IMG/VR virus record: IMGVR_UViG_3300044701_004080
Span: 1-29,362 of that record
Length of the DNA: 29,362 nt
Reading direction: 5' to 3' (one strand)
Origin: a virus
The notes under the pieces are model-generated. The model saw only the letters and a list, made by a program, of their open reading frames with translations. It did not search any database and had not been told where the DNA came from. Both the position numbers and the translations under genes were made by a program. This document shows, one piece after another, positions 12,348 through 28,755 of this stretch (its first letter is position 1; each line of letters begins with the position of its first letter).

Positions 12348-12352
12348 GAGAC
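12336..12352. other. Small inverted repeat at the gp46/queE junction
   Basis: Arms GTCTCT (12336-12341) and AGAGAC (12347-12352) form a 6-bp stem with a 5-base loop, spanning the gp46 stop codon and overlapping the candidate queE -35 element. There is no T-run after it in the transcribed direction, so it is not a typical terminator. It could be an operator or a chance palindrome. Confidence 0.35.
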
Positions 12353-14169: not shown

Positions 14170-15735
14170 TTAATATATTTTTGCAAAATGTTCACGCCAG
14201 TAATTATATGTTTTGTAATCGTCTGGAGTACCCCAACAAATATAATTTTTAACTTCAAATACTTTCACATTTAAACCTTTTTTAATGTTTTGATTTAAAA
14301 CATCATCTACATAAAACTCTCCATTAGTAGTAATGTTTTGTTTATAATTTTGTTGTAAACCTTCTATAAAATATTTTGCCTTTCTAAAAAACATAGTTCC
14401 TATAATTGCATGAGTTTTTAATGGATCATCGTATATAAACTTTTTACAAGATACATGATGTATATTATCGTTTTCATCCACATCTAACCAAGCATACATA
14501 TTTGGATTCACTTTACTAGTTTGGTTGTTACGAAAAGACCAAACTATAATATCTACATCCTGATCATCTACCAAAGTCTTGTATTTGTCTGCATCGTAAT
14601 AAGCTCCATTATCACAAGCCGTAATCATTATAGGTTTTTCAAGATCTTGTTTGCTTAATTTTAAAGCAATTTCACAAGTACATGCCTGTCCACGGGTTAC
14701 TTCTTTTATAGGAACTATATTACATCTGTTGTAATATTCGGCTAAAAACATTCCGTGATCTATGTCTTTAAAATGTTCTTCCAAAACCGCAAAAGTGTGA
14801 TGTTCACAAGATGGTAAACATTGCGCAGCTCTAATAACCATAGGTATTCCGTCTACCTCTATTAAAGGTTTAGGTTTATCATATCCTTGTTGTTTAAACC
14901 TATCTCCTCTTCCTGCCATTGGCATAATCATGGTTGTATCAGGAGGGTTTGGAACTATTTTTTGACCTTGTTTTATGTTTTTGAAATAAATTGACCAGCC
15001 TTTATATATTTCCAAGTCATAAGGAGTTCCCCATTGCAACATCTTTTCAATTTCAAAGATACCTACTTTTAATCCATCTCTTACTAAAAGATTATAAACC
15101 ATACTAACATAATATTCGCCTTTTAGGTTTAAATCTAAATCCATCAATTCTTTAAAATATTTTTTTAATATACAACCAGATTTAAAATAATATGTTCCGT
15201 TAGAAGCATATTCATCCATTTTATTATCTGTAAAGGGTTCTTTTTCTTTGATTTGTTCTAGAATGTTATTTGTTTCTTTACAAAATGCATAATTGTCACC
15301 TCCTAACATATGTGGGTGAAATCCTTTGTAACAAGGAATTGCTCCGTCATAATCTTTAACAAATTCTAAAAACTTTTCAAAATTCCAAACAGTACCATAA
15401 TCACAATAACTAACTATAACTTCGGCATCATCTTTTATAATATCTTTAATTTGATAAACCGCATCTACAGGTCCTTTTCGATTTTCATTAGAAACTGTAA
15501 CAATTTTACATTCTGGGCAAAGGGATTTTAATATAGAAACTATATTTGTTTCTTCTACATGCTTTTCATTGCAAATAAAGGTAACGTCTTCAATACCCGG
15601 AAATATATCTAAAACGTGTTTAACAATAGGATAACCATCAACCTCTATTAAAGGTTTAGGATCTTTATAACCTGCTTCTACAAATCGTTTCCCTATTCCA
15701 GACATAGGGATTATTAACTGTATTTTTCTCTGCAT
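14170..15735 (-). CDS. Tandem two-domain sugar-phosphate nucleotidyltransferase
   Basis: This 521-residue protein contains two homologous NTP-transferase domains in tandem (about 1-250 and 265-521). Each starts with the nucleotide-binding loop (PMSGIGKRF at 10-18, PMAGRGDRF at 272-280) followed by KPLIEVDG, and each repeats a GEYYV/GEFYVDDV segment and a WGTP segment near its end. Such enzymes couple a sugar phosphate to a nucleotide, giving an NDP- or CDP-sugar. SYCDYG in domain 1 and TACDNG in domain 2 supply the metal-binding Asp. Both domains could be active with different substrates, or one may be structural. It is the last cassette gene before gp46 and follows the GDPD-like gene by 1 bp. 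Confidence 0.88.
   Translation of the reverse strand: MQRKIQLIIPMSGIGKRFVEAGYKDPKPLIEVDGYPIVKHVLDIFPGIEDVTFICNEKHVEETNIVSILKSLCPECKIVTVSNENRKGPVDAVYQIKDIIKDDAEVIVSYCDYGTVWNFEKFLEFVKDYDGAIPCYKGFHPHMLGGDNYAFCKETNNILEQIKEKEPFTDNKMDEYASNGTYYFKSGCILKKYFKELMDLDLNLKGEYYVSMVYNLLVRDGLKVGIFEIEKMLQWGTPYDLEIYKGWSIYFKNIKQGQKIVPNPPDTTMIMPMAGRGDRFKQQGYDKPKPLIEVDGIPMVIRAAQCLPSCEHHTFAVLEEHFKDIDHGMFLAEYYNRCNIVPIKEVTRGQACTCEIALKLSKQDLEKPIMITACDNGAYYDADKYKTLVDDQDVDIIVWSFRNNQTSKVNPNMYAWLDVDENDNIHHVSCKKFIYDDPLKTHAIIGTMFFRKAKYFIEGLQQNYKQNITTNGEFYVDDVLNQNIKKGLNVKVFEVKNYICWGTPDDYKTYNYWREHFAKIY
14855..15660. repeat. Internal direct repeat marking the nucleotidyltransferase duplication
   Basis: An identical 20-bp string occurs at 14855-14874 and 15641-15660 and encodes KPLIEV in both domains of the two-domain nucleotidyltransferase. 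The matching nucleotides as well as residues suggest that the domains arose by tandem duplication within the gene. Confidence 0.6.
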
Positions 15736-15736
15736 A

Positions 15737-16183
15737 TTAAAATATGCAATAATCAGTACAAACTGCGTACACTTTATCTTTATATAGATTTATATGTTGT
15801 ATATCTTCCAATCCTAATAAAGGAATAATACATCTATCATTTAAATCTAATCTTATATCATGAACCCATATATGTCCTGTGCTCATGATAACATAAGGAT
15901 CTTCAACATGACAAAAATGTTTAATATGTTTTTTATCAGATAAAATTTGAGCTGAAGCTATATCTTTACAATGTAACCACAAATAATCTATTCTTTTTTC
16001 TAACCAATTAAAATCAACAGTATAATCACTTGTGTCATGACCTAATTGAAATAAACCTTTTTCATACCTAACATCAATTTCAACTTCATAACCTAATTGG
16101 ATAGCACTGTCAATATAAGAAGGTCGATTTTCTAAATCTGGTTTACGACCTTTTAAATTACCTCTATGTGATATGAATTTCAT
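15737..16183 (-). CDS. Short GDPD-like (glycerophosphodiester phosphodiesterase fold) protein
   Basis: This 148-residue protein has the active-site pattern of the GDPD/PI-PLC superfamily: FISHRGN (His6, Arg7), then GYEVEIDVR (Glu35, Asp37) and QLGHD (His49). True GDPDs are about 240 residues and form a complete TIM barrel, so this is a minimal or truncated form. Similar short proteins occur in bacterial capsule and surface-polysaccharide loci. It might cleave or transfer a glycerophosphate or related phosphodiester in the cassette; the substrate is not readable. ATG at 16183 overlaps the HAD gene stop (ATGA), so the two are probably translated together. Confidence 0.75.
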   Translation of the reverse strand: MKFISHRGNLKGRKPDLENRPSYIDSAIQLGYEVEIDVRYEKGLFQLGHDTSDYTVDFNWLEKRIDYLWLHCKDIASAQILSDKKHIKHFCHVEDPYVIMSTGHIWVHDIRLDLNDRCIIPLLGLEDIQHINLYKDKVYAVCTDYCIF

Positions 16184-16473
16184 AAATTTTCTATATTAAT
16201 ACTTCTATCATCTATAAACAAATCGTAATAAGGTTTATCCACTCTTAGTTCATGGTGTTTTGCTCCCCATTCATTTAATTGTTTTTTAGTTAAATCATAC
16301 CAATTAATTTGTTTACGACTACCTCGAGCAGTCCAGTAAACAATTGTATGTCCTTGATCATACAATTTATTAATTTTTTCTATGTTTTCCTTAATAGGAA
16401 TTGCATCTTCATACTTGCGAGTAGGTGGAGTTTTGCAAATAGTTTCATCAATATCTACATAATAAACTTTCAT
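16180..16473 (-). CDS. Small HAD-family phosphatase
   Basis: This 97-residue minimal HAD hydrolase has the nucleophile motif DIDET (Asp7, Asp9), motif II in YWTARGS (about 46-52, Thr48) and a C-terminal KPYYDLFIDDRS (about 80-91) supplying the conserved lysine and acidic residues. It has almost no cap domain, so it likely acts on an accessible substrate such as a sugar phosphate or a protein- or lipid-linked phosphate. Small HADs of this type are frequent in capsule loci. ATGA overlaps at both ends tie it to the aldolase-like gene upstream and the GDPD-like gene downstream, which suggests consecutive steps in one pathway. Confidence 0.85.
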   Translation of the reverse strand: MKVYYVDIDETICKTPPTRKYEDAIPIKENIEKINKLYDQGHTIVYWTARGSRKQINWYDLTKKQLNEWGAKHHELRVDKPYYDLFIDDRSINIENL

Positions 16474-17129
16474 AATATTTTTTGTCTATATATTTCTTTT
16501 TTGTCGTTGGCTATTTTTTCAATTTGTTTTTGTGTTAAAACAGAAGGTAAACCTAAAAATTCTGCTCCCATAAGAATTTCTGATGCTTTTTCGCAAATTT
16601 GAGTAGCTATTAAACATTCTTTAAAAGTTTTACCACAACATATTATACCGTGGTTTTTTAATAAAATCAATTTGGGAAATTTATTATATTTGTCTTCAAA
16701 ATTTGTAACATTTTTTTCTATAGCTTTTTTTAATTCTATTCCAGGGTGAGCATATTCAACTAAACATGAAATTTCTCCATTAAAAACTACCTGATCTGGA
16801 AATAAACGATCTCTAACCAATTCTTCTGTATGAACCGAGCATAGTATTTTTAAAGTATTAACTGGATGTGTATGCGCTACAAAATTAATATCTTGTTTTT
16901 GCAAAAGCCAATTATGAAAATTAGTTTCCATACTTGGTTTTTTTGAGAAATTTGTTAACTGTTTACCTTCTTTTAAAGAACACTTAATAAGATCTTTTTT
17001 AGATAAGGTTTTTAATTCTGTTCCACTGGCTTTAATATAAAAATTATCACCAATTTTTTGAGACACATTACCTTCGGTTCCGACAACAAAAGGAGACAGA
17101 AAGTGAGCTAGTTCTAATAAATCTTTCAT
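16470..17129 (-). CDS. Class II aldolase / ribulose-5-phosphate 4-epimerase-family enzyme
   Basis: This 219-residue protein of the zinc-dependent aldolase/adducin family includes GTEGNVSQK (17-25) and KASGTEL (33-39) for phosphate binding, Glu68 as likely catalytic acid, the zinc histidines in AHTHP (His86, His88) and the third one in LKNHGI (His160). This matches the Glu/His/His/His arrangement of fuculose-phosphate aldolase and L-ribulose-5-phosphate 4-epimerase; MtnB-like dehydratases share it. The substrate is presumably a ketose 1- or 5-phosphate. It follows a gene with a phosphoribulokinase-like domain by 1 bp, so the two may work on the same pentulose phosphate; that link is inferred. 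Confidence 0.9.
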   Translation of the reverse strand: MKDLLELAHFLSPFVVGTEGNVSQKIGDNFYIKASGTELKTLSKKDLIKCSLKEGKQLTNFSKKPSMETNFHNWLLQKQDINFVAHTHPVNTLKILCSVHTEELVRDRLFPDQVVFNGEISCLVEYAHPGIELKKAIEKNVTNFEDKYNKFPKLILLKNHGIICCGKTFKECLIATQICEKASEILMGAEFLGLPSVLTQKQIEKIANDKKEIYRQKIL

Positions 17130-17130
17130 A

Positions 17131-18579
17131 CTAACTTAATGATAAAATAAAGAAAATTATATAATCGTAAAAATTATCTTGTTTAAATTTATTTTCTCCT
17201 AATAAATTTGAAGATTGAAATTTTAAGAAATTAACGCAATTAAAATTTTCTTCTTGGCTATAGGTAACAGTATACGGAATGTTATAGGATGTTAATTTAG
17301 CTAACACTTCTGTTAAGCTATATTTTTTATTGATTAACAAATTAAGATGTACATTTGGTTCATTTTCTTCTAAAAAGGATTCATCATTTGTATAAAAATT
17401 TACAATAATGTCTGATTCTTTTCTTTGTGGGTATATATACTCTAAATAATCTTTGCTTCTCTTGTCTATTTGATTCTTTACTTCTTCTACAGAATATCCT
17501 CGATTTGTTGAGTCTCTCAATATTTTCCACCTAGTTTTTAATTTAATATCTGTATCTAAAAATATTTTTAAATTATAAACACCTTCGTGTTTATTATAAA
17601 AACTATGTAAACCGCAAACTATTACGTTATCTGATTTATTAATCTCTTCTGGAGATGTAAATTTACCGTTGTTGTGGTCATAATTAACATGATAAACATT
17701 TTTGCCTATTTTTAAATCAAAAATGTCTTTGTTCATTTTAGATATATAATTTGCTTCTGGGTTTAAATGTGTATAATTTTTCCAATTATCATCATGTCTT
17801 TCCCATTTATGGTATCGGTCACATTCTAAAGTAAAAGAATCTGAAAAATATTTCTTTAAAGATTCACTTAATGTAGTTTTTCCAGACCCAGAATCACCAC
17901 AAATAGCAAATATATTACAAGTAGATAATATTACATTATAATCAAGTTTAATTAATTTATACGAAATTTTATAATCATTTAGATAGTAATATAAAAGAGT
18001 TTCAGATATTGGTGTGTTGTATTTTGTAACTAATCTATTTAAATGCTTATAAATTTCAAAATATAAATCCATGCTATGTGAAGACCCATAAGCAAAAATA
18101 TCACAAATATGAGGATCTGTTTGATTTTTTAATTTTGATCTATCAACTACGCTTTCTTCTGGAATGTATATTTGACCCTTTTCTATTTCAGAAAAAACAT
18201 TTTCTTCTATAATGTTTAAATCTGGTCGGTATTTTATAACTAAGTCATAAACCCCTTTGTGGGTTTCGTTGCATAATTTAATTTGATTCAATTTATAATA
18301 TTTTAACCAAAGGTTGTATAAATTGTTTAACTTTTTGTCTTCGTGGAGGTCTAAATTATCTTCTTCTAAAATGGCTATTGGTTTTAAAATTTCTTTAATT
18401 AATTTAATATCTTCTTCTTCATGAGCTGGATTAAAATATTTGTCGTCTTTTAATTCATTTTTTGTAATGTGTATATACACATCAACAACATCGTATTTGT
18501 CTATTATTTTTTGTTTAATTAAAGGTAAATTTACTTTAAACGATCTTAAATAACCGGATATTATTAGAGCTACTCGCAT
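17131..18579 (-). CDS. Glycosyltransferase-like / phosphoribulokinase-like fusion protein
   Basis: This 482-residue protein is read from ATG 18579, 1 bp after the upstream stop; a TTG three codons earlier is less likely. The N-terminal part (about 1-215) starts MRVALIISGYLRSF and contains IKYRPDL and DIFAYGSSHSMD, features I associate with poorly characterised surface-glycan transferase-like proteins. From about 222 a P-loop kinase follows: GDSGSGKT (228-235), ECDRYHKW, YDHNNGKF, IVCGLHSFY, and WKILRDSTNRGYSVEEV with R...DY.EYI.PQ. This order closely tracks plant/cyanobacterial-type phosphoribulokinase. About 80 unassigned residues follow. It probably phosphorylates a pentulose or a related sugar or nucleoside. 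Uridine kinase is the alternative, but the GLH, WKI.RD and RG motifs favour PRK. Confidence 0.82.
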   Translation of the reverse strand: MRVALIISGYLRSFKVNLPLIKQKIIDKYDVVDVYIHITKNELKDDKYFNPAHEEEDIKLIKEILKPIAILEEDNLDLHEDKKLNNLYNLWLKYYKLNQIKLCNETHKGVYDLVIKYRPDLNIIEENVFSEIEKGQIYIPEESVVDRSKLKNQTDPHICDIFAYGSSHSMDLYFEIYKHLNRLVTKYNTPISETLLYYYLNDYKISYKLIKLDYNVILSTCNIFAICGDSGSGKTTLSESLKKYFSDSFTLECDRYHKWERHDDNWKNYTHLNPEANYISKMNKDIFDLKIGKNVYHVNYDHNNGKFTSPEEINKSDNVIVCGLHSFYNKHEGVYNLKIFLDTDIKLKTRWKILRDSTNRGYSVEEVKNQIDKRSKDYLEYIYPQRKESDIIVNFYTNDESFLEENEPNVHLNLLINKKYSLTEVLAKLTSYNIPYTVTYSQEENFNCVNFLKFQSSNLLGENKFKQDNFYDYIIFFILSLS

Positions 18580-18580
18580 A

Positions 18581-19390
18581 TTACGCAAAATTTCGTGATT
18601 TTTCTAAGAGTTTATATTTAGAAACGATATTTTGGTATTCAACAGAACAATCTTTGTAAGACTGTCCAAATTTTGTTACGGGCTTGTGTGGGTCAAATCT
18701 AACAAAAGCTCTGTGATGGGTAATATGAAAAAATTTATATTCGGATACACATTTAAAATAACCACATTCTTCTAAAGAAGTTTTATATAAATTACATACT
18801 TTTAAATTTTCACAATATTGTTGAACTGGAAGATCTTCCATGTCCCTATAAGAAGTCTCTTTAAAGTTTTCTACCATTTTTGTAAAAGATTTAACATTAG
18901 CTATACACGGATTTACATTATATCGATATGTGGTTACACCTTTTTGTTCACTAATATATAAGGTTTCTATAGCTGGTGTAGTTGTTACATCCCATTTGTT
19001 GATTGGTAGGTATAAATCCACTTTTGTAAATTCTGGACCGTTATGTCCACTTGGCTGTAAATTGATTCTATCTATTTGATTTAATTTGGCATAGTCGACG
19101 AGTTTATTTAAAACTTGTATGTTTTTATTTAATAAAATATCAATTTCATGCGAAAAAAGGATGTAATCACTTTTTATATTAGTTAATGTTTCATAAAGCT
19201 TTGCACCATATTGCTGATTATCTTTATATAATAATATTTGTTCATAATGAGCAGACCATTTTTCTAAATCAATATCTGATTCATTAATGATAAGAATTTT
19301 ATTTTTAAAATCTGTTAAATAATCCGTAGCGATTTCTAAACAATCTAAATTGTCTGTGTGAGAATATACTACGAAAGGTATGGTCAACAT
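18581..19390 (-). CDS. Putative glycosyltransferase (GT-A-like), weakly supported
   Basis: This 269-residue protein is read from ATG 19390, 1 bp after the preceding stop. A longer frame from a TTG at 19399 would overlap that stop. A Rossmann-like start (IPFVVYSHTDN) and the segment DYILFSHEIDILL, with acidic residues where GT-A enzymes keep DXD, suggest a glycosyltransferase-like fold. YRDMEDLPVQQYC and FFHITHHRAFVRFD are other distinctive stretches. I cannot place it in a family. Context within the cassette supports a glycan role. It has no signal peptide or membrane segment, so it would act in the host cytoplasm. Confidence 0.65.
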   Translation of the reverse strand: MLTIPFVVYSHTDNLDCLEIATDYLTDFKNKILIINESDIDLEKWSAHYEQILLYKDNQQYGAKLYETLTNIKSDYILFSHEIDILLNKNIQVLNKLVDYAKLNQIDRINLQPSGHNGPEFTKVDLYLPINKWDVTTTPAIETLYISEQKGVTTYRYNVNPCIANVKSFTKMVENFKETSYRDMEDLPVQQYCENLKVCNLYKTSLEECGYFKCVSEYKFFHITHHRAFVRFDPHKPVTKFGQSYKDCSVEYQNIVSKYKLLEKSRNFA

Positions 19391-19391
19391 A

Positions 19392-20174
19392 TCAATCAAC
19401 TATTGACCAATTCGGTAATTCTTTAGGCATCGTACCAACACATCCGCCTAATCTATCTTCATGGCGATGCTCTTTTTGAATAAAAGGGTATAATTTAACT
19501 AGAACGTTTTGTAAAATACTGTTTTTTGCATCTATTAAGTAACAAAATCTCCCCCATAAAGAATCTATTAAATGTATTTCTTTTGCGTTTTGTAATACTT
19601 TAATAAATTCAAACATATTAGGCGTTATACCACCTATGCTTACCACTTTAAAATCGCTTTGAGGGTTTATTGGTCTTTCTTGAGATTCATGAACTAGAAT
19701 ATAATTTTCTCCATGTTCTTTTATAAAATTATCATAAACTTTTTCTTCTAATTCAAAATCTCTTTCAAATTTGAAACAATCTATTAAAACTTCATAATTT
19801 ATATCATAACCAACAAAAAACGCTTCAACAAAATGTTTTGTTCGGCCTTGAGTAGGAACAAATACTCCTCTATATTTGTCTCCCGGAGTTCGAAGGTTAT
19901 CATAATAACCATGAAATAACAAATCGTATTTTGATAAATCAACCATCTGTAAAATTGCTTGGCTATGTATGTTAGATAAAGGAGTGTATAACACACCCAC
20001 ATTTGGTTTATTGCGACAATAAAAATCCACATATCCACTAGCATCTTCTCTCATTATAACTGTAAGTTTCTCATACATTGGAGCATAATAATCAATCAAA
20101 GACAATTGATTTATAATATCCGTAAATCCTTGATGAAAATACAATAGGCCTTCTTTTTTTTCTGGAGTGTTCAT
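19392..20174 (-). CDS. Unknown protein of the glycan cassette, possible GT-B-like transferase
   Basis: This 260-residue protein has no firm family. The N-terminus (LLYFHQGFTDIINQLSLID) looks like the start of a nucleotide-sugar-type Rossmann domain, and the C-terminal half has YILVHESQERPI and KEIHLIDSLWGRFCYLID, reminiscent of GT-B enzymes of the heptosyltransferase sort, where a conserved serine or threonine region contacts the donor. It lies between the GT61 gene (ATGA overlap) and another transferase-like gene, which is the main argument for a glycan function. A 1-bp gap separates its stop from the next ATG. Confidence 0.6.
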   Translation of the reverse strand: MNTPEKKEGLLYFHQGFTDIINQLSLIDYYAPMYEKLTVIMREDASGYVDFYCRNKPNVGVLYTPLSNIHSQAILQMVDLSKYDLLFHGYYDNLRTPGDKYRGVFVPTQGRTKHFVEAFFVGYDINYEVLIDCFKFERDFELEEKVYDNFIKEHGENYILVHESQERPINPQSDFKVVSIGGITPNMFEFIKVLQNAKEIHLIDSLWGRFCYLIDAKNSILQNVLVKLYPFIQKEHRHEDRLGGCVGTMPKELPNWSIVD

Positions 20175-21385
20175 ATTATTTTTTTAAAATTTTCTAAATC
20201 TAATTTCCAAGCACAATTAAGTCCGTTATCTAATTTTTCGCAATCCTTTTTAGGTATAAATTTCTGATTTAAATTCATTTCACTATTCCACCCTGCAACG
20301 GGTCTCTCGGTATAAGATACAAGTAACAAATCATCTTTTATATCTTGCACTTCTCCTACAATATCTCCTGATTTTACCCTCATATATTTTATCCATTCAC
20401 CAGGTTCTGCATGTTCGCTTTTATCATAATAAACTGTATCTTTACCGATAAAACTGTATTTAAATCTTTCGTGTTTTTCTAAAAATGTAGGAGAAATAAG
20501 AATTTTTAATTTTGCATCTTTGTTACTAAACAAAGCATTAACAACCCCTCCACCTATAGCTCCTATAATGTTTTTAGCCTTACTAAAAGTGAGTAATTTT
20601 TCTTCTGTCGACATTTGTTCTGTAAAAATTTCTGTATAATTTTTACTTTTCAGATATTCAACCAAATCATCTTCGTTTATTAATTTTCTACGAGTAGTAT
20701 AATTGGTGCCTATATTTGAATTGTCGTTGTGTATCCAAGTCCTGCGTGAAATGTATATATTTTCTGGTGTTTCTTTATCTAATTTAATATTTGAAACTAT
20801 TTGTTTATAAAAATTGTATATTTCTTCTCTAGGGGGCAGATTTGAATCTATATCATGGGTATAAGAATTAGATATATAAATTTCGGAATATAAAACTTTT
20901 TTTTCAGCTATTATTATATCTTCTTTACTAATGTTTAGTAATTCTAAAAATTCTAAAACAAATTTATAAAATTCTTGTTTACTTTCATTAGGATAATTCA
21001 TTAATAACTTTAAAGAAGGTATTTTATTTTTTAAATAGCGATACGATATTAAATAAGGCAATGTGTCGTATACAAAATGAAAATAATTGTCTGTGTTATA
21101 TAAAAAGAAAAAAACTGGTGTTGGTTCATCTTTTAAAAAAACAAAGTCATTTTTAAAATCTTCATCATTTAAATTTTGAGAAATCTTATCTAAAGACATT
21201 ATTTTTTCTTTTAAAGGTTTATAAGTAACACCGCCAAACAAATCTCTAATTAACACATTAGGATAATAAGTTGAACTCCCTACTAACACTGCTTCCGAGA
21301 GTTTGTATATATTAATTTCCCTACCATTTAAATCTTTAGCTAAAAATGGTATTTTATTCGGTATTTCTGTTAAATCTTTAACCAT
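20171..21385 (-). CDS. GT61-family glycosyltransferase
   Basis: This 404-residue protein carries the GT61 (DUF563) pattern. NTDNYFHFVYDTLPYL (about 96-111) gives the conserved N..H...D.LP segment. IYISRRTW is followed by RRKLINEDDLVEYL, and the C-terminal half carries TFSKAKNIIGAIGGGVVNALFS, the usual AxxxxxxxGxxxxN signature. GT61 includes transferases for xylose, GlcNAc and arabinose in plants and animals, as well as bacterial capsule enzymes, so the sugar cannot be predicted. About 100 residues after the core (about 310-404) are unassigned. ATG at 21385 overlaps the preceding gene by 8 bp. Confidence 0.82.
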   Translation of the reverse strand: MVKDLTEIPNKIPFLAKDLNGREINIYKLSEAVLVGSSTYYPNVLIRDLFGGVTYKPLKEKIMSLDKISQNLNDEDFKNDFVFLKDEPTPVFFFLYNTDNYFHFVYDTLPYLISYRYLKNKIPSLKLLMNYPNESKQEFYKFVLEFLELLNISKEDIIIAEKKVLYSEIYISNSYTHDIDSNLPPREEIYNFYKQIVSNIKLDKETPENIYISRRTWIHNDNSNIGTNYTTRRKLINEDDLVEYLKSKNYTEIFTEQMSTEEKLLTFSKAKNIIGAIGGGVVNALFSNKDAKLKILISPTFLEKHERFKYSFIGKDTVYYDKSEHAEPGEWIKYMRVKSGDIVGEVQDIKDDLLLVSYTERPVAGWNSEMNLNQKFIPKKDCEKLDNGLNCAWKLDLENFKKII

Positions 21386-22064
21386 TGTGTGTTATACCTA
21401 ATTTTGCTAAATCATTTATCCAATCACCTGTAAATTTATTATCTTCATCAATAGGTTGACCTACAAAATAAATCCCATCTCTATTAAAGCTACGCGCCGA
21501 AGGGAATGAATCCATAGCATGTTCTAAATAATCTCCTTTTACGACTTCATGATAATAATCATATAAAAATCTTTGGTCTATACCTTTAGTATCACTCGCT
21601 TCTTTAACGAATTCTGTCATGGTGTATTTGATATCATTAAATACATTTCCCTTTCCACCCCACATTCCAGCTAAAATAGGGAATTCTGGTGTAAAATGAT
21701 AAGGATGGTCTTTCATTATATGATAGGTTCTATCCGATTGAATCCAAGCATCTACAGCTTCCTTTTCTCGAAATGAAAGTCTTGAATCTGTGTCTCTAGA
21801 TATAAATCTTTCAACCCCTTCTTCACTTAAAGGTAAAAATCTATATAATGTTGAATAAAATCCTCCAGGTTTTGTTATTTTTTTTATTTCTACAGAAGAG
21901 TTTATTTTTTTAAGTTCTTCTTCCATAAAATGATCTTCTTCAAACAAATAGAATCGACAAATCCAATCTGGATAAATCGATTGAGCTTTTTTAAGATTTT
22001 CTATAGCTCCTTTTTGGTACATTGGAGCATTGCCAAATAAACTAAATGTTATTAATTTCTTCAT
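21378..22064 (-). CDS. GT-A-type glycosyltransferase with DTD motif
   Basis: This 228-residue protein starts with a Rossmann strand, KLITFSLFGNAP, and the metal/donor motif lies in FISRDTDSRLSFRE (Asp-Thr-Asp, about residues 90-92). AWIQSDRTYHIMKDHPYHF and ILAGMWGGKG further define a family I know as uncharacterised capsule and phage glycosyltransferase-like proteins. It would use a nucleotide sugar in the cytoplasm. ATG at 22064 sits inside the end of the upstream fucosyltransferase-like gene (23 bp overlap). The donor and acceptor are unknown. Confidence 0.75.
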   Translation of the reverse strand: MKKLITFSLFGNAPMYQKGAIENLKKAQSIYPDWICRFYLFEEDHFMEEELKKINSSVEIKKITKPGGFYSTLYRFLPLSEEGVERFISRDTDSRLSFREKEAVDAWIQSDRTYHIMKDHPYHFTPEFPILAGMWGGKGNVFNDIKYTMTEFVKEASDTKGIDQRFLYDYYHEVVKGDYLEHAMDSFPSARSFNRDGIYFVGQPIDEDNKFTGDWINDLAKLGITHNG

Positions 22065-22863
22065 TATAATTAAGATATTCTTTATTGCTTCTTAAATGAT
22101 ATACATTTTTTAAAGATCCTCTGTATAATACAGGTATTATACCGCCATTTCCTGCATGAGTAAAAATTTTATAGCATTTGGATATTATCCTCATAATTGA
22201 TTCAAAATCAACACTCCATTGAACTCTATTACTTTGAGGAAGAACATAGTTTTCGCTAAAAATCATTTCTTCAAATGTAAAAATATTGGGGTTGTATTTT
22301 TCTAAAAATTTATTTTTAAAGTCCAATTCATCAGTTTGAAATAAAATGCGAGAATCTTTATCTAAAATTTTGTCTGTATATTCTATCCACCAGTCAACAG
22401 GTTGTAATTCTGCTTCACGACCTTTATCTGTTCCTCTGTGAAATACTGCTACTGTATTTTCATAATTTATATTATACTTTTGCTCTAGTTGTGTAACTCT
22501 CTGTTGTACAAAATCTGATGGTTGAAAATACGCATCTTCAACCATTTTAACATCTTCCATTTTTAAAAAAGTAAAAGGTATTGCAGTTGGGCACCAATAT
22601 TCAAAATCAAAATCTTTTTCTTTTAATTTTTCTATATTTTCTTGATTTGATTTATAAAGATAAGGGTACAAATCTTCAGTATACCGATACCAATATAAAG
22701 TGTTTATAAATGAAATTTTTTCTGGATATATCTTATAGTTTAACAATCTGCATAAAGAATTGCGAACTTCGTTTATACATGAATAAAACCCAGATTCATG
22801 ATCACCATATAAAATTTTATTATGCTCATCGTAATGGCAATGGGGTAGATATGGTAATTTCAT
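22042..22863 (-). CDS. Fucosyltransferase-like (GT11/GT23-like) protein
   Basis: This 273-residue protein includes VAVFHRGTDKG (138-148), which resembles the HxRRxDK donor-binding motif of GDP-fucose-dependent transferases (NodZ/FUT8 and relatives). It is followed by WWIEYTDKIL...RILFQTDE, similar to their next motif, and by FTHAGNGGIIPVLYRG near the C-terminus. The canonical second arginine is a glycine here, so the donor may differ from GDP-fucose. ATG at 22863 overlaps the preceding stop as ATGA. A GT-B fold and cytoplasmic action are inferred. Confidence 0.62.
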   Translation of the reverse strand: MKLPYLPHCHYDEHNKILYGDHESGFYSCINEVRNSLCRLLNYKIYPEKISFINTLYWYRYTEDLYPYLYKSNQENIEKLKEKDFDFEYWCPTAIPFTFLKMEDVKMVEDAYFQPSDFVQQRVTQLEQKYNINYENTVAVFHRGTDKGREAELQPVDWWIEYTDKILDKDSRILFQTDELDFKNKFLEKYNPNIFTFEEMIFSENYVLPQSNRVQWSVDFESIMRIISKCYKIFTHAGNGGIIPVLYRGSLKNVYHLRSNKEYLNYNEEINNI

Positions 22864-24134
22864 TTATTTGTGGTCGTTGTATTTTTATCAAAAATATAAT
22901 AATGCAGAATTTTATCTATATGTCTTTCTGTTTTTGCTTTTAAACACAATTCTTTTATCCAATGCCAATCTTCAGCCCAAGATATATCTTTAAATTCAAT
23001 TTGTTTAGCTATTTTTGAATTCCACGCACACATATGAAAAGGTTTGCGATAGATAGGCATTCCTGGCACGTATTCTGTGTTTTCATACTGTAAACCGAAA
23101 TATACTATTACAGGCGCATCGGATCCTATTTTAGCTTCTTGATTAAAAGATATTACATCGACACCCGGACACTCTTCAATACTTGATATAATTTCTTTAA
23201 TATAATCTTCTGATATTAAATCATCGTCGTCTAAAAAAGCTAAAAACTTTCCCTCACATGCATTTATCAAGTCTTGTCTTTTGTGCCCAATAGACCTAGC
23301 TTTATTATCCACAAAAGCTAAAATTTCTACCTTTTCTTGACAGTTATTGTCGTTTATTTGTTTTTGAAGTTTATCAAAAATTTCTTTTAATTTTGAAAAT
23401 CTTTCTGGTATACTTGTTATAAGAATTGAAAACAATTTTTTATTGAGCTTATCTAATTCAAAATTTTTAGATTTTCTTTTTTCGTATGTTTCTTTATCAA
23501 CATTATAATATGCTTCATTTCTAACATATAAAGGATCATAAGTTGTTTTTTGGTATACTGGATGTTGGTGTTCTATGATAATTTGCTCTGATTTGTATAC
23601 CTTTTTTAAAATTTGAGAAACTTCTGTAAATTCATTATCACACCATAAGCTTACATAATCTGGATGGTATATATATCCAAACATATCATAATACTTTTTA
23701 CCCATTATACTGAGAGTGTTGATATGATTTTGACCACCATCGTTATACCACAAGACACCATCTAATCTCTTAAAGAAATCATTCATGTCTTTTTTAATAA
23801 CACTATCATACCCATTTACTACAGGTATCATGTCATCAGAAGCTAATAGCAAAATATCCCACCCAGATACCTTTTCCATGTCGGCATTGACTGCTTGTAT
23901 TTTGGTTTTACTTTCTCCAAAAAAATAAACTAATTTAATTCTTTTTTGATATTCTTTTAATCGATTTAAAACTTCTTCATTATTCATACTGTTATCATCA
24001 GTATCTAATGAAATCAAAAACGCCAAACGGCTTGCGTCTGAAGCTTTATTTATATATTCATCAAGAACATTAAAAAATTTCTCTGGTCTTCCTCTAGTAG
24101 GAAATTTTATTAGTAATCTATAGTCTGGTATCAT
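22860..24134 (-). CDS. Two-domain glycosyltransferase (GT-A plus GT2)
   Basis: This 424-residue protein joins two GT-A-type modules. The N-terminal one (about 1-225) begins LLIKFPTRGRPEKF and has LLLASDDMIPV in the DXD position. The C-terminal one (about 233-424) is a compact GT2 domain: FSILITSIPERF, ARSIGHKRQDLI, FLAFLDDDDLIS (metal-binding acids) and AEDWHWIKEL (catalytic acidic region). The C-terminal module parallels the separate 181-residue GT2 protein encoded next to it (SIGSKRNELL, VFVDDDDMVS), so the two are probably paralogues by local duplication. A bifunctional enzyme adding two sugars is possible. ATG at 24134. Confidence 0.82.
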   Translation of the reverse strand: MIPDYRLLIKFPTRGRPEKFFNVLDEYINKASDASRLAFLISLDTDDNSMNNEEVLNRLKEYQKRIKLVYFFGESKTKIQAVNADMEKVSGWDILLLASDDMIPVVNGYDSVIKKDMNDFFKRLDGVLWYNDGGQNHINTLSIMGKKYYDMFGYIYHPDYVSLWCDNEFTEVSQILKKVYKSEQIIIEHQHPVYQKTTYDPLYVRNEAYYNVDKETYEKRKSKNFELDKLNKKLFSILITSIPERFSKLKEIFDKLQKQINDNNCQEKVEILAFVDNKARSIGHKRQDLINACEGKFLAFLDDDDLISEDYIKEIISSIEECPGVDVISFNQEAKIGSDAPVIVYFGLQYENTEYVPGMPIYRKPFHMCAWNSKIAKQIEFKDISWAEDWHWIKELCLKAKTERHIDKILHYYIFDKNTTTTNK

Positions 24135-24135
24135 A

Positions 24136-24681
24136 TCAATAACCGGATGAGGGGTAATAATAATATATTGGTCCTTTAATAAAAACCTCAGTTTTTAATT
24201 TACCTTTCAATCTTTCCGAAAAATCTTGATCTTCTTTATAGTATAGATCGGGGAATCTTACTTCTAAAGCTATTTCTCTTTTAATAGGATTTAAATGATT
24301 AGGACAACGATAATAAATTTCATCTTTTTCAAACCAATGATCAAATTGAAGAGAATGTATAAATTTTTTAGGTCCTATGTTTTTTTGTGTGATTATACCT
24401 TCTATACCACAACAATCCGGTTTATCTTTAATTGCCATTAATATACTCGCAACATAAAATGGAGAAACCATATCATCATCGTCTACAAAAACCACATATT
24501 CACCTTTTGCAGCTTCGAGTAATTCATTGCGTTTTGAACCTATAGACCTTTCTCCGCTATCTAAACTAGCCAACATTTCCACTTCATTGTTGGATTGTAA
24601 TTTTAATACTCGACCAAGATTTTCAAAAATCTGCCTTCTAGATTCTAAGGTACAAGTTAAAATTGATAATTTTTTTGACAT
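24136..24681 (-). CDS. Compact GT2-family glycosyltransferase
   Basis: This 181-residue single-domain GT2-like protein has KLSILTCTLESRR (3-15) as the first strand, ERSIGSKRNELLEAAKGEYVV with VDDDDM as metal-binding motif (about 68-73), PNHLNPIKRE and YYKEDQDFSERL with the catalytic acid region. At 181 residues it is short for GT2 and ends soon after the catalytic region. It is most similar within this window to the C-terminal domain of the 424-residue neighbour. ATG at 24681 lies 1 bp after the upstream GT gene, just past a strong inverted repeat that may affect its translation. Confidence 0.85.
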   Translation of the reverse strand: MSKKLSILTCTLESRRQIFENLGRVLKLQSNNEVEMLASLDSGERSIGSKRNELLEAAKGEYVVFVDDDDMVSPFYVASILMAIKDKPDCCGIEGIITQKNIGPKKFIHSLQFDHWFEKDEIYYRCPNHLNPIKREIALEVRFPDLYYKEDQDFSERLKGKLKTEVFIKGPIYYYYPSSGY

Positions 24682-24682
24682 A

Positions 24683-26161
24683 TTAAAAGTTTACAAGATA
24701 ATGGGTGACATTATCTTGAGAAGATTTGACTTCTAGATATTTTATTAAACTTTTACATTTATTCAATCCGTCATTTTTGTGATAGTCTTCTCCTAAAATT
24801 CCAGATTCATATTCTCTGAATCTTTTACCGTTAGCTAAATGATACTCATTTTCTTTAGGATCATTTAAACGATGGGCATGCGGTACACTAAAAAATTTAC
24901 CGTAAGGATGTTTATACGGATGTAGGTTTTCCTTGACACATCTTGCATATAAATCGTCGTCTTCTTTACCCCATCCATTAAATTCATTACTATAACCATT
25001 GACTTGTTTATAATGTTCTTTTGTAAAAAGAATAACTCCACCCATTATTCGATCTGGTATATTGATATAATTAAATTGACTACAATGACTGCTTATATGA
25101 GAAGGTTTTATCGGGTAACTGTAATCTGATATTTCTGGTATTAAATCTACATCATGAAAACAAACGTAATCTCCAGAGCTTTGTAAAAATCCTACATTAT
25201 TCAAAAGACCTTTATTGAAGGGGTTTTTATTGTTTTGTTCTACTATAATAATTTCAAAGTTTTCAACTTGTGTTGAAACGTATTTTTGCAAAGCTGGTAT
25301 TAATTGGTTTAAAGCTTGTTCTCTGTCTCTATAAGGCACTATAATAGATAATTTTTTATCTTGGTTAATAATTTTTTTCCTGCTGTAATTTGTTTGCAAA
25401 TGTATTAAAGATAACAATAATTTTTTAAGTCCTACATCCGGGATTTCATTTGTAAATTTACCCCATTTTTGTGTAAAATGAGTTGCAGATTTTTGCCAAT
25501 TTTCTTGATACTTTTCTTTATTGGTTATAGAAGAATTGTCACTACTACCTTCAATATCCGTTAAATAATCTTCACTGTTATAAAGGTCTGGAAAATACCA
25601 AAAGGGAGGCGCTACCTTTTTTTGAATTAAATTATAAGCAAAATCTACATGCTCAAAAGCATTAATATAATTTTCATCAAAGTAACCCAATTTTTTAATC
25701 AATTGAGCATTAATATACATAAATGCTCCTTGAGGATTATGATAAAACCCTATTTTAACTCCGTCTGGTTGTTCATGAACATATTTTAAAGACTTCTCAT
25801 TACCTGCTACTTTCTCATAACACAAATGGTGTATACCAGTTGAATTTGCAGCTTTAATATATTCTTCGAAAACTTTAGGGTTTTTAATAATAATATCATC
25901 TTCTATTAAAAATATATGCTCACATCCTAAATCTCTTAATTTTTCAAGCGCTTTGTTTTTAGATTTTGCAACTCCCAATTGTTTATTATTGTGTATAACA
26001 ATTTCCGCGTCTTTAGGGTCTACATATACATTTTCACCGTCATTGACTATAACAATTTTATCTACACAATCTTTCGGAATAGAATCATAAACTTTTTTAT
26101 AATAATCTGGTCTATTATATGTAATAATCCCTATTCCTATTCTTGATGGTACTGTTTCCAT
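24683..26161 (-). CDS. Glycosyltransferase fusion: GT2-like domain plus GT7 galactosyltransferase-like domain
   Basis: This 492-residue protein has an N-terminal domain (about 1-250) that is GT-A type with RIGIGIITYNRPDYY and IFLIEDDIII (Glu87-Asp88-Asp89), paralogous to the 270-residue neighbour. The C-terminal domain (about 268-470) has the hallmarks of beta-1,4-galactosyltransferases (GT7): VPYRDRE (275-281), FNKGLLNNVGF (315-325), FHDVDLIPE (335-343), a GGV.LF..E.Y..VNGYSNEF segment, GWGKEDDDLYAR (396-407) and a possible metal His in PHAHR. All key acids are present. GT7 enzymes transfer Gal, GalNAc or similar sugars. ATG at 26161 lies in the end of the upstream gene (25 bp overlap). Confidence 0.88.
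   Translation of the reverse strand: METVPSRIGIGIITYNRPDYYKKVYDSIPKDCVDKIVIVNDGENVYVDPKDAEIVIHNNKQLGVAKSKNKALEKLRDLGCEHIFLIEDDIIIKNPKVFEEYIKAANSTGIHHLCYEKVAGNEKSLKYVHEQPDGVKIGFYHNPQGAFMYINAQLIKKLGYFDENYINAFEHVDFAYNLIQKKVAPPFWYFPDLYNSEDYLTDIEGSSDNSSITNKEKYQENWQKSATHFTQKWGKFTNEIPDVGLKKLLLSLIHLQTNYSRKKIINQDKKLSIIVPYRDREQALNQLIPALQKYVSTQVENFEIIIVEQNNKNPFNKGLLNNVGFLQSSGDYVCFHDVDLIPEISDYSYPIKPSHISSHCSQFNYINIPDRIMGGVILFTKEHYKQVNGYSNEFNGWGKEDDDLYARCVKENLHPYKHPYGKFFSVPHAHRLNDPKENEYHLANGKRFREYESGILGEDYHKNDGLNKCKSLIKYLEVKSSQDNVTHYLVNF
24694..24718. other. Perfect 10-bp inverted repeat before a gene junction
   Basis: Arms CAAGATAATG (24694-24703) and CATTATCTTG (24709-24718) pair perfectly around a 5-base loop. 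It forms the last codons of the GT2/GT7 fusion gene, ending 8 bp before its stop and 12 bp before the next ATG. Only a short TTTT follows in the transcribed direction, so it is not a canonical intrinsic terminator. It could damp translation of the next gene, be an RNA-processing or stability element, or serve as an attenuator. Confidence 0.6.
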
Positions 26162-26724
26162 ATAATTTTTAAATTATCTAATACTTCTTGTTCTGTATAA
26201 TTTTTTTCAGTTGGACCGTATCCGTGTACAACTGAAAATTTGTTTTTCTCAATGAAAAGATCCAATGCTTTTTGAAAATTTTTCATAAAGTCTGATTCAT
26301 TTCTAATTTTTGATTGTTGATGGTCTGGGACAGTATCTTTTAAGTATTTGTTTGCCCCGTTTACATCTGCAAACCATCGAAAAGGAGGATGATAACCTTC
26401 TTTAATAATTTGATATGTATGATCTACGTGCTCTAATGCATTATAGAAATTTTCATCCATTAATCCAGCTTTAACAAAAACATCTTTATGATAATAGCTA
26501 AACGCTCCTAAAACATTAGGATATAAATCTATTTTAGTATTATCCGGATAATTTACAGTCTTGCGAATGGTAGGATTACCATAAGAATCAAGATTATGAT
26601 TACCGTGTAAACCGAAATTAAAATGTTTAATGCCCGTTGATTGAGATGCTTTAATATATAAATCAAAAATTTTTTCATCTAATATTTCTATATCATCTTC
26701 CATTAAAAATATATGCTCACATCC
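25893..26724. repeat. Pair of 35-bp near-identical direct repeats in adjacent glycosyltransferase genes
   Basis: The stretches 25893-25927 and 26690-26724 differ at one position out of 35 and encode the CEHIFL(I/M)EDDI segment that carries the metal-binding acids in two neighbouring GT genes. The rest of the genes is more diverged. This points to a fairly recent tandem duplication or to local gene conversion. Confidence 0.7.
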
Positions 26725-26949
26725 GTGGTTTAACAAATAATTTAAAGCTTTATTTTTAGCTTTACCTACACCGCTTTTAGGTTGGTCTGTATCTATTTTA
26801 TCTATCAAAGTCTCAACTTTAGATTCGCCGTCATCTACAACAACTTTAATACAATCAAGTTTGTAAATAGAATCTCCTGATTTTTTAAAAAAATCCGGCC
26901 TATCACAAGTTATTAAACCTAAACCAATTTTATAATTCGGGACGGGCAT
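26137..26949 (-). CDS. GT2-like glycosyltransferase (tandem paralogue 2)
   Basis: This 270-residue GT-A-type protein contains YKIGLGLITCDRPDFF (6-21), VVVDDGES (36-43), SGVGKAKNKALNYL, IFLMEDDIEI (80-89, metal-binding Glu84-Asp85-Asp86) and NALEHVDHTYQI, a likely catalytic-acid region. It is collinear with the N-terminal domain of the next gene (24683-26161) and more distantly with the preceding one. Its acidic residues are intact, so it should be active. The ATG at 26949 overlaps the upstream gene by 20 bp. Donor sugar and acceptor unknown. Confidence 0.82.
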   Translation of the reverse strand: MPVPNYKIGLGLITCDRPDFFKKSGDSIYKLDCIKVVVDDGESKVETLIDKIDTDQPKSGVGKAKNKALNYLLNHGCEHIFLMEDDIEILDEKIFDLYIKASQSTGIKHFNFGLHGNHNLDSYGNPTIRKTVNYPDNTKIDLYPNVLGAFSYYHKDVFVKAGLMDENFYNALEHVDHTYQIIKEGYHPPFRWFADVNGANKYLKDTVPDHQQSKIRNESDFMKNFQKALDLFIEKNKFSVVHGYGPTEKNYTEQEVLDNLKIIWKQYHQE

Positions 26950-27709
26950 AATTTTTTTGTAATTGTTCTATAAATTCTACTAATTTTTCTTTGTCTACAG
27001 GTGCTGGATCGTTTTGACCTGGCAAGTATTTGTGTTTATGATAAAAGTATCCATAAGACAGCTGCACGTCTTTAGGCATATCTCTTGTAATCATATCAAA
27101 AGCATCTATATGATTTTTTTTAAGAATTTGGGAAGGTACAATTTCCAACCCTTCTTGTACTATAGGATTGTAATTGTTTGGAGGATATACTCCTTTGGTT
27201 CTTAACTTTATTATATAATCTAAAACATCTAAATTTTTAGTATTAAAATAACGTTCATCGAAATATCCATTATTTTTAATAATTCCAGAGTATATAAAAA
27301 GGAATGAGGTGTTTAATCCTAAAGAAACGTTTAAAGTAACATTTGCTTCGTCGTCTTCTATAGGTAAAGGAAGAGGAGAAGGCCCTACCATCATCCATGT
27401 TCCAAAAGTTTGAGCGATTTTTATAACTTTTTCAAAAATTGTAGGATCTTTTATTAAAACGTTTGAATCTAGTATGAAATAATATTTTAAATCTTTGATT
27501 CTCATTTGAGAAATAATCCAATTTTTCATAGCAGCTAATGAAATATCGGTTGTATATTTTTTTTGAATAACGTTTTTTGGTAGATTATTGTTACCGACTG
27601 AAGTTATGAAAACATTTTCTTTCAATTCTTCTGGAATTGAGGAATAACATTGGTCTAACAACTCTTGGTTGTATATATCTAGTATACCTATACCTATTTT
27701 GTTTTTCAT
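26930..27709 (-). CDS. Degenerate GT2-like protein (tandem paralogue 1)
   Basis: This 259-residue protein aligns end to end with the next two GT domains: it begins KIGIGILDIYNQELLDQCYSSIP and continues with YYFILDSNVLIKDPTIFEKVIKIAQ where they have IFL.EDDI.I. The metal-binding EDD is DSN here (81-83), and the EHVD catalytic-acid segment reads NLDVLDY. It may therefore be inactive, a structural partner, or an enzyme with altered chemistry. It is the first cassette gene after gp47; its ATG at 27709 overlaps the gp47 stop (ATGA), so the cassette is fused translationally to the recombination gene. Confidence 0.75.
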   Translation of the reverse strand: MKNKIGIGILDIYNQELLDQCYSSIPEELKENVFITSVGNNNLPKNVIQKKYTTDISLAAMKNWIISQMRIKDLKYYFILDSNVLIKDPTIFEKVIKIAQTFGTWMMVGPSPLPLPIEDDEANVTLNVSLGLNTSFLFIYSGIIKNNGYFDERYFNTKNLDVLDYIIKLRTKGVYPPNNYNPIVQEGLEIVPSQILKKNHIDAFDMITRDMPKDVQLSYGYFYHKHKYLPGQNDPAPVDKEKLVEFIEQLQKNYARPEL

Positions 27710-28755
27710 TTGTGAAGGTTATTATAAAGTTGATTTAGATAATTTACCACATCTTCTTTATATTGTACGTCAAGTGTGGATATAAAATCCTCCATACTTT
27801 TGGTGATATCAATTGACGAATAATCTTGATGGGGGTGGTCACTTAATAAGTTGTCTTCTAGCTTATAATCGGTCCGAAATGATTTGGGTTTTAAATTTTG
27901 TATTTTTGAAGAAATTAATAATATTTTTTCAGAAGAAAGGTTTTCATCAATGATTAGGCTTACAATGTTAGAAGGAATATTTTGTTTGAGAAAATTTGCA
28001 TCAATTTTACCTTCTATTAGTTTCTTAATGCTTATTTTGATATGTTTCGGGGATTTATCGTTTTCGTAAAACTTCAATTCAAAATCATCCAAATTTAATG
28101 TATAAACCCCTCTATCTTCACCACAATCGCCAAAATTTTGTTGATAAGGACTTCCTAAATAATAGACAACACCGTTTGTGTATTTTTTAAATGATTTTTT
28201 ATGAAAATGTCCTGATATAATAAAAGGAGATTTTGTCAATAAATCTTCAGAATCAAAACCGTGTTCACAAATTTTATAAGCATTCATATGAAATGAATTG
28301 ATCTCAAAATGACCAAAACATATATCAGATTTAGGCATATCTTTTAATGGAGTAGCCCAAGGCACAAAAGATATTTTTTTATCTTTATATTCAATAGTTA
28401 CTACGTTTTTGTCAATTATATTAATATTATTCCAGTAATTTAATAAAGAAATCGAATTAATATCAGATCTATCTTTATAATAACAGTCATGATTACCTAC
28501 TAAAATGTAAATGTTAAATTCTGAAAGAATTTCAAAAAAAGTTTTTGCTACACTTAATGTGTTAACAGATATTTCACTTCTATTGTGAAATATATCTCCA
28601 GGAATAACTATGTCCTTTATATTTTTTGATTTATATAGAGACTTAACCCACTGCGCAAATTCAATCACACATTCATGCCAAACTGTGCTGTCTTGGCCTA
28701 ATCCTATATGTATATCTGAAAAAACTCCTATTAGATTATGTTTAAAATCTACCAT
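27706..28755 (-). CDS. 47: Recombination nuclease subunit gp47 (SbcD/Mre11-like)
   Basis: This Mn-dependent nuclease works with gp46 on DNA ends. It has 349 residues (T4 gp47 is 339). The metallophosphoesterase motifs are in order: FSDIHIG (Asp14, His16), PGDIFHNR (Asp54), VGNHDCY (Asn88-His89-Asp90), CFGHFE (His149) and ISGHFHKK (His183, His185). All metal ligands are present, so it should be active. A C-terminal region (about 230-349) would bind gp46. The gene starts on ATG 28755, which overlaps the gp55 stop by one base (TAATG). Its partner gene 46 lies beyond the glycan cassette. Confidence 0.95.
   Translation of the reverse strand: MVDFKHNLIGVFSDIHIGLGQDSTVWHECVIEFAQWVKSLYKSKNIKDIVIPGDIFHNRSEISVNTLSVAKTFFEILSEFNIYILVGNHDCYYKDRSDINSISLLNYWNNINIIDKNVVTIEYKDKKISFVPWATPLKDMPKSDICFGHFEINSFHMNAYKICEHGFDSEDLLTKSPFIISGHFHKKSFKKYTNGVVYYLGSPYQQNFGDCGEDRGVYTLNLDDFELKFYENDKSPKHIKISIKKLIEGKIDANFLKQNIPSNIVSLIIDENLSSEKILLISSKIQNLKPKSFRTDYKLEDNLLSDHPHQDYSSIDITKSMEDFISTLDVQYKEDVVNYLNQLYNNLHK

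Follow-up and report, generated by a model that had tools for sequence, protein, structure and literature searches.

A fifteen-gene insert between gp47 and gp46

The window analysed here is the whole of a single IMG/VR virus record (IMGVR_UViG_3300044701_004080; 29,362 bases, possibly a fragment), and its gene content indicates that it is a T4-like replication-recombination region. On the minus strand it reads gp55, gp47, fifteen genes designated i01 to i15, gp46, queE, a glycosyltransferase-like gene, gp43, a TGT-fold gene and thyX, followed by a gene without assignment, uvsX, queD and a DnaB-like helicase. We focus on the i01-i15 insert and on the interval that holds it, hereafter 47|46, which is very probably a locus at which cassettes are exchanged.

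The first-pass annotation of the window had described a 13.5-kb glycan cassette at 14170-27709 that splits gp47 from gp46, and open reading frame (ORF) calls together with PHROG matches bear this out, with fifteen tightly packed genes on the minus strand. Its first gene overlaps gp47 by the four bases ATGA, as had also been noted; the 14 junctions within the cassette range from -25 to +1 bp, and 11 bp separate i15 from gp46. The ORF picker accepted no opposite-strand ORF between gp47 and gp46. From the gp55 side, the features are:

28755..29345, minus strand: gp55, late sigma factor, left landmark (phrog_234, E 5.7e-29)
27706..28755, minus strand: gp47 (SbcD-like), left flank (phrog_100, E 1.5e-67; Metallophos, E 3.8e-9)
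26930..27709, minus strand: i01, GT-A-fold protein that has lost the DXD motif and overlaps gp47 (phrog_2456, E 2.4e-5)
26137..26949, minus strand: i02, GT2-like glycosyltransferase, homologue of i01 (phrog_2456, E 2.8e-24)
24683..26161, minus strand: i03, two-domain glycosyltransferase, GT2 plus GT7-like (Pfam Glyco_transf_7C, E 8.2e-19; 7N, E 6.5e-18; Glycos_transf_2, E 6.7e-7)
24136..24681, minus strand: i04, GT2-like glycosyltransferase (Glycos_transf_2, E 1.5e-6; phrog_14775, E 7.1e-33)
22860..24134, minus strand: i05, two-domain glycosyltransferase (Glycos_transf_2, E 7.6e-6; phrog_8858, E 4.8e-32, and phrog_14945, E 1.7e-17, one per half)
22042..22863, minus strand: i06, no Pfam or PHROG match; an HRGTD-type motif in 8 aligned rows, which we take to be reminiscent of GT11/GT23-like enzymes
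21378..22064, minus strand: i07, no Pfam or PHROG match; R-D-x-D invariant in 11 rows
20171..21385, minus strand: i08, GT61 glycosyltransferase (Glyco_transf_61, E 1.1e-16)
19392..20174, minus strand: i09, no family match; often found with the travelling module described below (L156, L157, L160 and others)
18581..19399, minus strand: i10, no convincing family match; found with the travelling module in many loci
17131..18588, minus strand: i11, two-domain protein with a C-terminal phosphoribulokinase/uridine-kinase-like kinase (Pfam PRK, E 7.4e-34; NF005655, E 1.6e-51, under its cut-off; PDB phosphoribulokinases, best E 2.4e-30)
16470..17129, minus strand: i12, class II aldolase / pentulose-phosphate epimerase family (Aldolase_II, E 1.7e-27)
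16180..16473, minus strand: i13, small HAD phosphatase similar to the capsule EcbF/BcbF kind (TIGR01689, E 3.3e-7, under its cut-off; phrog_1238, named phosphoheptose isomerase, E 6e-29)
15737..16183, minus strand: i14, short GDPD-like protein with an HRGN motif (phrog_34507, unknown function, E 1.1e-43; weak GDPD-like profile match to PDB 3i10, E 9.4e-4)
14170..15735, minus strand: i15, tandem two-domain sugar-phosphate nucleotidyltransferase that abuts gp46 (NTP_transf_3, E 4.3e-12; NTP_transferase, E 1.2e-9; phrog_3980, E 4.8e-112; PDB 4evw, E 1.2e-16)
12344..14158, minus strand: gp46 (SbcC-like), right flank (phrog_77, E 2.4e-102)

The proposed mixture of precursor synthesis with many transferases was recovered through nucleotidyltransferase, aldolase, kinase and glycosyltransferase family matches. 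The estimate of about fifteen carbohydrate genes held as a count of ORFs, with family or fold evidence that fits carbohydrate metabolism in 11 of the 15. Seven transferase domains have family support, spread over i02, i03, i04, i05 and i08, and there are perhaps further transferases among i01, i06, i07, i09 and i10; PDB profile searches for i01, i06, i07 and i09 returned nothing at E ≤ 0.1. The GC content of the insert, overall and at third codon positions, is not distinct from that of gp47, gp46 and gp55, so composition shows no mark of recent import.

The 47|46 interval in related phages

The arrangement in T4 (55 - a-gt - 47 - 46.2 - 46.1 - 46) places only two small genes between 47 and 46, in agreement with their earlier description as near neighbours, and S-PM2 has one gene there. 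Isolated phages are distant from the window (the best-ranked gp46 and gp47 rows among the matches listed are ~27% identical) and IMG/VR contigs are nearer. We therefore compared a set of 50 loci, the window included, picked for gp46 or gp47 similarity to the window and containing only some of the short-gap loci. Redundant rows were dropped before counting (L010, L152, L029, L145, L153, L016, L149), and near-identical pairs such as L122/L123 and L146/L150 were kept.

Among relatives with the 55-47-46 order intact, the interval ranges from 6 bp to 15.6 kb: 6-39 bp in five loci, 783-824 bp in seven and 3,952-15,622 bp in 38. This variable insert strongly supports the suggestion that 47|46 is a hotspot. 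An empty site (39 bp, L013) occurs in a phage whose gp47 is 58% identical to that of the window, as near as the gp47 of cassette-bearing relatives. In the 783-824 bp intervals the only gene resembles i02 or i03 (25-31%), and these loci may be an early stage of the hotspot or a reduced one. The seven loci with this single transferase-like gene (~0.8 kb) are L031, L059, L063, L067, L069, L070 and L078; six of them, where gp55 was found, also have ~1.1 kb between 55 and 47.

Insert content and backbone similarity

The 484 insert genes of 45 loci fall into 206 families, 116 of them singletons. Identity in gp46 predicts the sharing of insert genes only moderately (rho 0.35; 703 pairs, 38 loci). Among 49 close pairs from 20 loci (gp46 at least 85% and gp47 at least 80% identical), 34 have at most two insert genes in common and three have at least 80% in common. 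L135 and L138, for example, are 95% identical in gp46 and 96% in gp47, yet have one of 13/14 insert genes in common. Conversely, L121 and L148 are only 47% and 52% identical in gp46 and gp47, yet 15 of 18/19 genes are common to both, with identities that reach 80% and lie at 65-80% for 11 of the 15.

The same holds for the window. L317, with a gp46 only 38.5% identical, nevertheless matches it at 82.6% in i15, 72% in i13 and 57% in i12, and its gene order is near that of the window (i06-i08-i10-i09-i11-i12-i13-i14-i15-gp46); for L134 the values are 39% for gp46 and 64% for i15. The nearest backbone by gp46, L120 (gp46 66%, gp47 65%), has i01-i07 present and i08-i15 all missing. Conserved flanks with alternative cassettes, near-identical backbones that differ in content and distant ones that share it are the pattern of serotype-type exchange.

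A fixed start and a variable end

Turnover is not uniform along the insert. Going from gp47 towards gp46, the mean number of loci per family falls by fifths from 22.5 through 7.4, 3.7 and 3.0 to 2.5 (38 loci, 477 genes). The corresponding correlation is negative in 37 of the 38 loci (mean rho -0.62, permutation p 5e-4), and remains at a mean of -0.47 in 36 loci when the first two genes are left out. In the nearer clade of 21 loci, i01 and i02 are present in all 21, i03-i05 in 8-10 and i06-i15 in 0-3.

A scan for i01 gave 71 loci; gp47 is its immediate predecessor in 69 and stands 930 bp off in two, and an i02/i03-like gene comes next in 68. The two exceptions, L142 (contig of L373) and L374, have an extra gene between gp47 and i01, at 2656-3573 (305 aa) in L142.

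The two fixed genes are homologous to one another (hhalign 98.8%), and the i01 model has a GT-A fold (predicted local distance difference test score, pLDDT, 91.7; best Z 15.4). Their acidic motifs differ: i02 has E-D/E-D in 21 of 21 rows, whereas D/E-x-D is missing from 53 of 55 distinct i01 sequences. The two rows that retain it (L389, L390) are the most distant, 25% identical with EDD intact, and both, though counted among the 71 i01 loci, may instead be i02-like. The best conserved protein of the locus, i01, may therefore share the transferase fold yet be non-catalytic or metal-independent. Its fold match to polypeptide GalNAc-transferases (Z 15.4) is not counted as proof of protein glycosylation, being tied with matches to other GT-A families.

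A portable distal module

Alignment of i15 yielded 142 loci in viral contigs and 127 in bacterial genomes, of which 80 each were kept. Among the 80 viral loci, 71 contain both i13 and i14, 64 also contain i12, and 62 of these have i08 or i11 too; gp46 lies within the fetched stretch in only two, L156 (contig of L317) and L173 (contig of L134), and in both i15 directly adjoins it. The bacterial loci have relatives of both i11 and i12 in 38 cases, i13 in two and i14 in one, and this rarity makes the i13-i14 pair look typical of the phage form. The two with i13-like genes, L275 and L289, are on contigs labelled Planctomycetaceae bacterium TMED10; L275 has i08, i12 and i14 as well, arranged as in cyanophages, so both contigs may represent phage DNA that was placed in a bacterial bin.

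The module also occurs away from 47|46. In S-SM2, gp47 (108772-109821) and gp46 (110075-111802) are ~250 bp apart and the related genes lie at ~144-163 kb, more than 30 kb away; homologues of i15, i12, i13, i14 and i08 in S-SM2 and Bellamy are 37-65% identical. On the L318 contig, 47 adjoins 46 and the module has another position; Bellamy likewise has the two genes nearly adjacent and the related module at a different place. Adjacent 47 and 46 with the cassette elsewhere had been named as the case that would speak against a hotspot. The hotspot survives, because the nearer relatives bear cassettes at 47|46; a tie between module and place does not, and the module appears portable rather than bound to the site. 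One S-SM2 gene (L002, 21306-21617) with a 64% match to i13 carries the annotation phosphoheptose isomerase; since the i13 profile looks like a small HAD phosphatase, that label may be wrong.

The only bacterial operon annotated, that of Poseidonibacter (L238), encodes a kinase, a different HAD protein, an aldolase, a nucleotidyltransferase with GtrA, PMT, an acyltransferase, GT2 and Wzx-type genes. Its membrane genes have no counterpart in the phage cassette, which holds soluble counterparts only.

Glycan function and acceptor

In the relatives, representative proteins of the insert families match sugar epimerases, dehydratases, FkbM methyltransferases, aminotransferases and the glycosyltransferase families GT2, GT10, GT11, GT25 and GT47. 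No homing endonuclease stood among the 25 most frequent Pfam families listed for each of two batches of representatives (96 + 95 = 191), a negative that is incomplete since 65 and 62 families were matched in those batches. By hydropathy, a single hydrophobic segment above 1.6 was seen in 15 of 554 insert proteins, and two or more segments in none. Searches for a flippase, an initiating phosphoglycosyltransferase and GtrA (PF01943, PF02397, PF04138) were negative in all 19 records, the window included, of which five exceed 175 kb and most are fragments. PF00303 (thymidylate synthase / dCMP hydroxymethylase) was likewise found in none of 18 records (window included, five above 175 kb, the rest fragments); the T4 control gave three matches, one of them, at 25542-26057, presumably gene 42.

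These absences speak against T4-type DNA glucosylation and against phage-encoded O-antigen export. As far as gene content indicates, the phages supply precursor synthesis and transferases but neither detectable export nor a T4-type modified base, and the cassette is likely a soluble glycan assembly line. Soluble-looking enzymes and the lack of export genes imply that the glycan is most likely placed directly on a cytoplasmic acceptor. A virion protein is our leading guess, at slightly less than even chances; the core of host lipooligosaccharide (LOS) or another host envelope glycan is a less probable acceptor, something other is a minor possibility, and DNA is improbable.

Proposed mechanism and alternatives

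We propose, with moderate confidence, that 47|46 is a glycan-biosynthesis cassette-exchange locus that works as follows. The conserved flanks, gp55-gp47 and gp46-gp43, would allow glycan cassettes to be replaced in whole or in part, with homologous recombination between co-infecting phages as the presumed swap route. The gp47-proximal start (i01 with i02) would stay with the backbone, and gp46-proximal genes would be swapped. Judging by its families, the distal module (i11, i12, i13, i14, i15 and i08) would make an activated sugar or polyol, and the transferases could build a complex glycan from that product and host sugar nucleotides. The simplest acceptor would lie in the cytoplasm, where export is not required; a virion protein awaiting assembly is an example. 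A distinctly more tentative extension is that these uncultured T4-like phages have serotypes, in which each virion carries a complex glycan coat: i01 would dock the line to one conserved virion protein, i02 would add the first sugar, and outer sugars would be swapped as cassettes at 47|46 under selection by adsorption, grazing or binding proteins, much as bacteria exchange O-antigens.

Several points weigh against this proposal. The loci were chosen for gp46 or gp47 similarity to the window, four of the fifteen genes (i06, i07, i09, i10) are without a convincing family, and IMG/VR records are mostly fragments, so that absences are no proof. The correlation over 703 pairs implies that some content is inherited along with the backbone. 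The distal module is at 47|46 in only two other contigs, and 78 of 80 viral loci are without gp46 in the fetched flanks. Swaps are observed, while the recombination route is one that we infer; the solubility of the enzymes rests on a simple hydropathy test. DXD-free GT-A enzymes exist, and i01 need not be inactive. LOS cores, too, are assembled in the host cytoplasm by such GT25, GT2 and HAD enzymes. In the passages concerned, the authors of PMC7029224 and PMC7824862 read the pelagimyophage and cyanophage clusters as host-surface modifiers.

The strongest alternative, though doubtful, follows from the last two points: the enzymes would extend or remodel a host envelope glycan such as the LOS core against competing phages, making 47|46 a superinfection-exclusion type of locus. 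The cytoplasmic location of LOS-core transferases would make a phage flippase unneeded, and the cassette is joined to gp47, which in T4 is expressed before the late genes. In L238, relatives of i11, i12 and i15 belong to a bacterial surface polysaccharide operon, and such a role is proposed for the pelagimyophage and cyanophage clusters in the parts of PMC7029224 and PMC7824862 that deal with them. Against it stand the 0/19 records with flippase, initiating phosphoglycosyltransferase or GtrA, the bacterial operon's membrane genes without phage counterpart, and the presumed expense of making sugar precursors for a host soon to be lysed.

Glycans attached to phage DNA, in the manner of T4, are improbable. 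T4 a-gt is nearby, on the other side of 47, and the N-terminal part of i03 weakly matches phrog_842 (beta-glucosyl-HMC-alpha-glucosyltransferase; E 1.4e-4); nothing else in the cassette points to DNA glucosylation. The window also holds queE, queD and a TGT-fold protein, a combination that suggests a candidate DpdA-like modification (the DpdA link being our assumption), so the DNA of this phage may carry 7-deazaguanine. However, PF00303 was found in 0/18 records against three matches in the T4 control, and we know of no DNA base glycan near fifteen-gene complexity. Moreover, the contigs of L098, L101, L104 and L115 are without queE and the TGT-like gene near gp43 yet carry cassettes (L145, L146, L148, L150), so the cassette seems independent of the modified base; 7-deazaguanine as the glycan acceptor was held unlikely on the same grounds. 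Of 28 loci (some of them redundant), 10 carry both queE and the TGT-like gene, 17 carry neither and one carries the TGT-like gene alone.

Less probable still is a passively accumulated, largely non-functional stretch of stuffer DNA at a neutral spot, a notion raised for cyanophage lipopolysaccharide (LPS) clusters in PMC3037559, where these are discussed. Insert content does turn over fast, but all 15 genes are open and tightly packed, 11 fit one theme, distant phages keep the module partners together (i13 with i14 in 71 of 80 viral i15 loci), and i01 is fixed at gp47 in 69 of 71 loci. Finally, misassembly at either junction, which the first-pass annotation had raised, was looked into, and an assembly or binning artefact is scarcely credible even for a lone 29 kb record, because the gp47-i01 junction (69 of 71 loci) and the i15-gp46 junction (two further contigs, L156/L317 and L134/L173) recur in independently assembled relatives.

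The exchange of glycan cassettes at 47|46 shows that the interior of a conserved recombination operon (55-47-46-43) accepts and replaces inserts of 4-16 kb. The fixed start, polar variable end and portable precursor module offer a handle on what the sugar clusters of T4-like phages act on. Being conserved, i01 and i02 would be expected at the acceptor, and natural phages that match in backbone but differ in cassette lend themselves to direct comparison. Were the virion the acceptor, phages would have serotypes evolving by cassette exchange, with a bearing on adsorption, superinfection and phage recognition.

Other features of the window

A glycosyltransferase-like gene (10213-11520, minus strand; phrog_7162) lies between queE and gp43; because it is also present in relatives without a 47|46 cassette (L036, L108), we place it outside the cassette. 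All 45 Foldseek PDB hits of the TGT-like protein (6738-7601, minus strand; 287 aa) at E ≤ 0.001 are TGTs. This likeness was found by structure search alone, with no match by PF01702, NCBIfam or PDB sequence search. A DHH phosphoesterase (1727-2617, minus strand; phrog_4771, E 5.9e-19) is downstream of the helicase. A tRNA scan of the window found none, promoter-like sites were no commoner than in shuffles (110 vs 112.0), and terminator-like sites numbered 6 vs 4.8 (standard deviation 2.3).

Comparison with known systems

The alpha-gt gene of T4 had been taken as a sign of the same hotspot. Like the window, T4 has a transferase gene between gp55 and gp46, and a-gt does lie between 55 and 47; the link is positional only. 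T4 has a single DNA glucosyltransferase, on the other side of gp47, which acts on hydroxymethylcytosine, whereas no synthase for that base was found in the records searched here. Bacterial O-antigen and capsule loci, such as rfb between its fixed flanks, are likewise swappable glycan cassettes between conserved genes. They differ in that no Wzx, initiating transferase or GtrA was found here, and in that the carrier is a virus.

Closer in kind are the LPS/capsule clusters of the cyanophages P-SSM2, S-SSM7 and S-SM2, which, as portrayed in the relevant parts of PMC3037559 and PMC7824862, also place a large cluster of sugar-nucleotide enzymes and transferases in the core of a T4-like phage. Those clusters lie near hli03, phoH or tRNA genes in the account of PMC3037559, unlike the window cassette, and the same account asks whether they are functional or stuffer DNA. 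The host recognition cluster of pelagimyophages is similarly a hypervariable, glycosyltransferase-rich island in a T4-like core; according to the portion of PMC7029224 on this island, its place is between vrlC and gp14, alongside tail fibres, whereas the cassettes here lie at 47|46, with no tail-fibre gene recognised and a fixed start on the gp47 side. Chlorovirus PBCV-1 offers a parallel by gene content. As outlined in PMC9614988, it encodes mostly soluble, partly multi-domain transferases that make a complex virion glycan, and the 554 insert proteins likewise look mostly soluble by hydropathy; PBCV-1, however, is a virus of eukaryotes whose capsid N-glycan has been demonstrated.

Lateral transfer among T4-related genomes has been reviewed (PMC2993671). 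A search by title or abstract opening, with most subscription journals outside it, listed no paper pointing to a glycan insert or exchange locus at 47|46. That T4-like phages carry large sugar-gene clusters has been clear since the cyanophage genomes, and within that kind the 47|46 exchange locus appears to be new.

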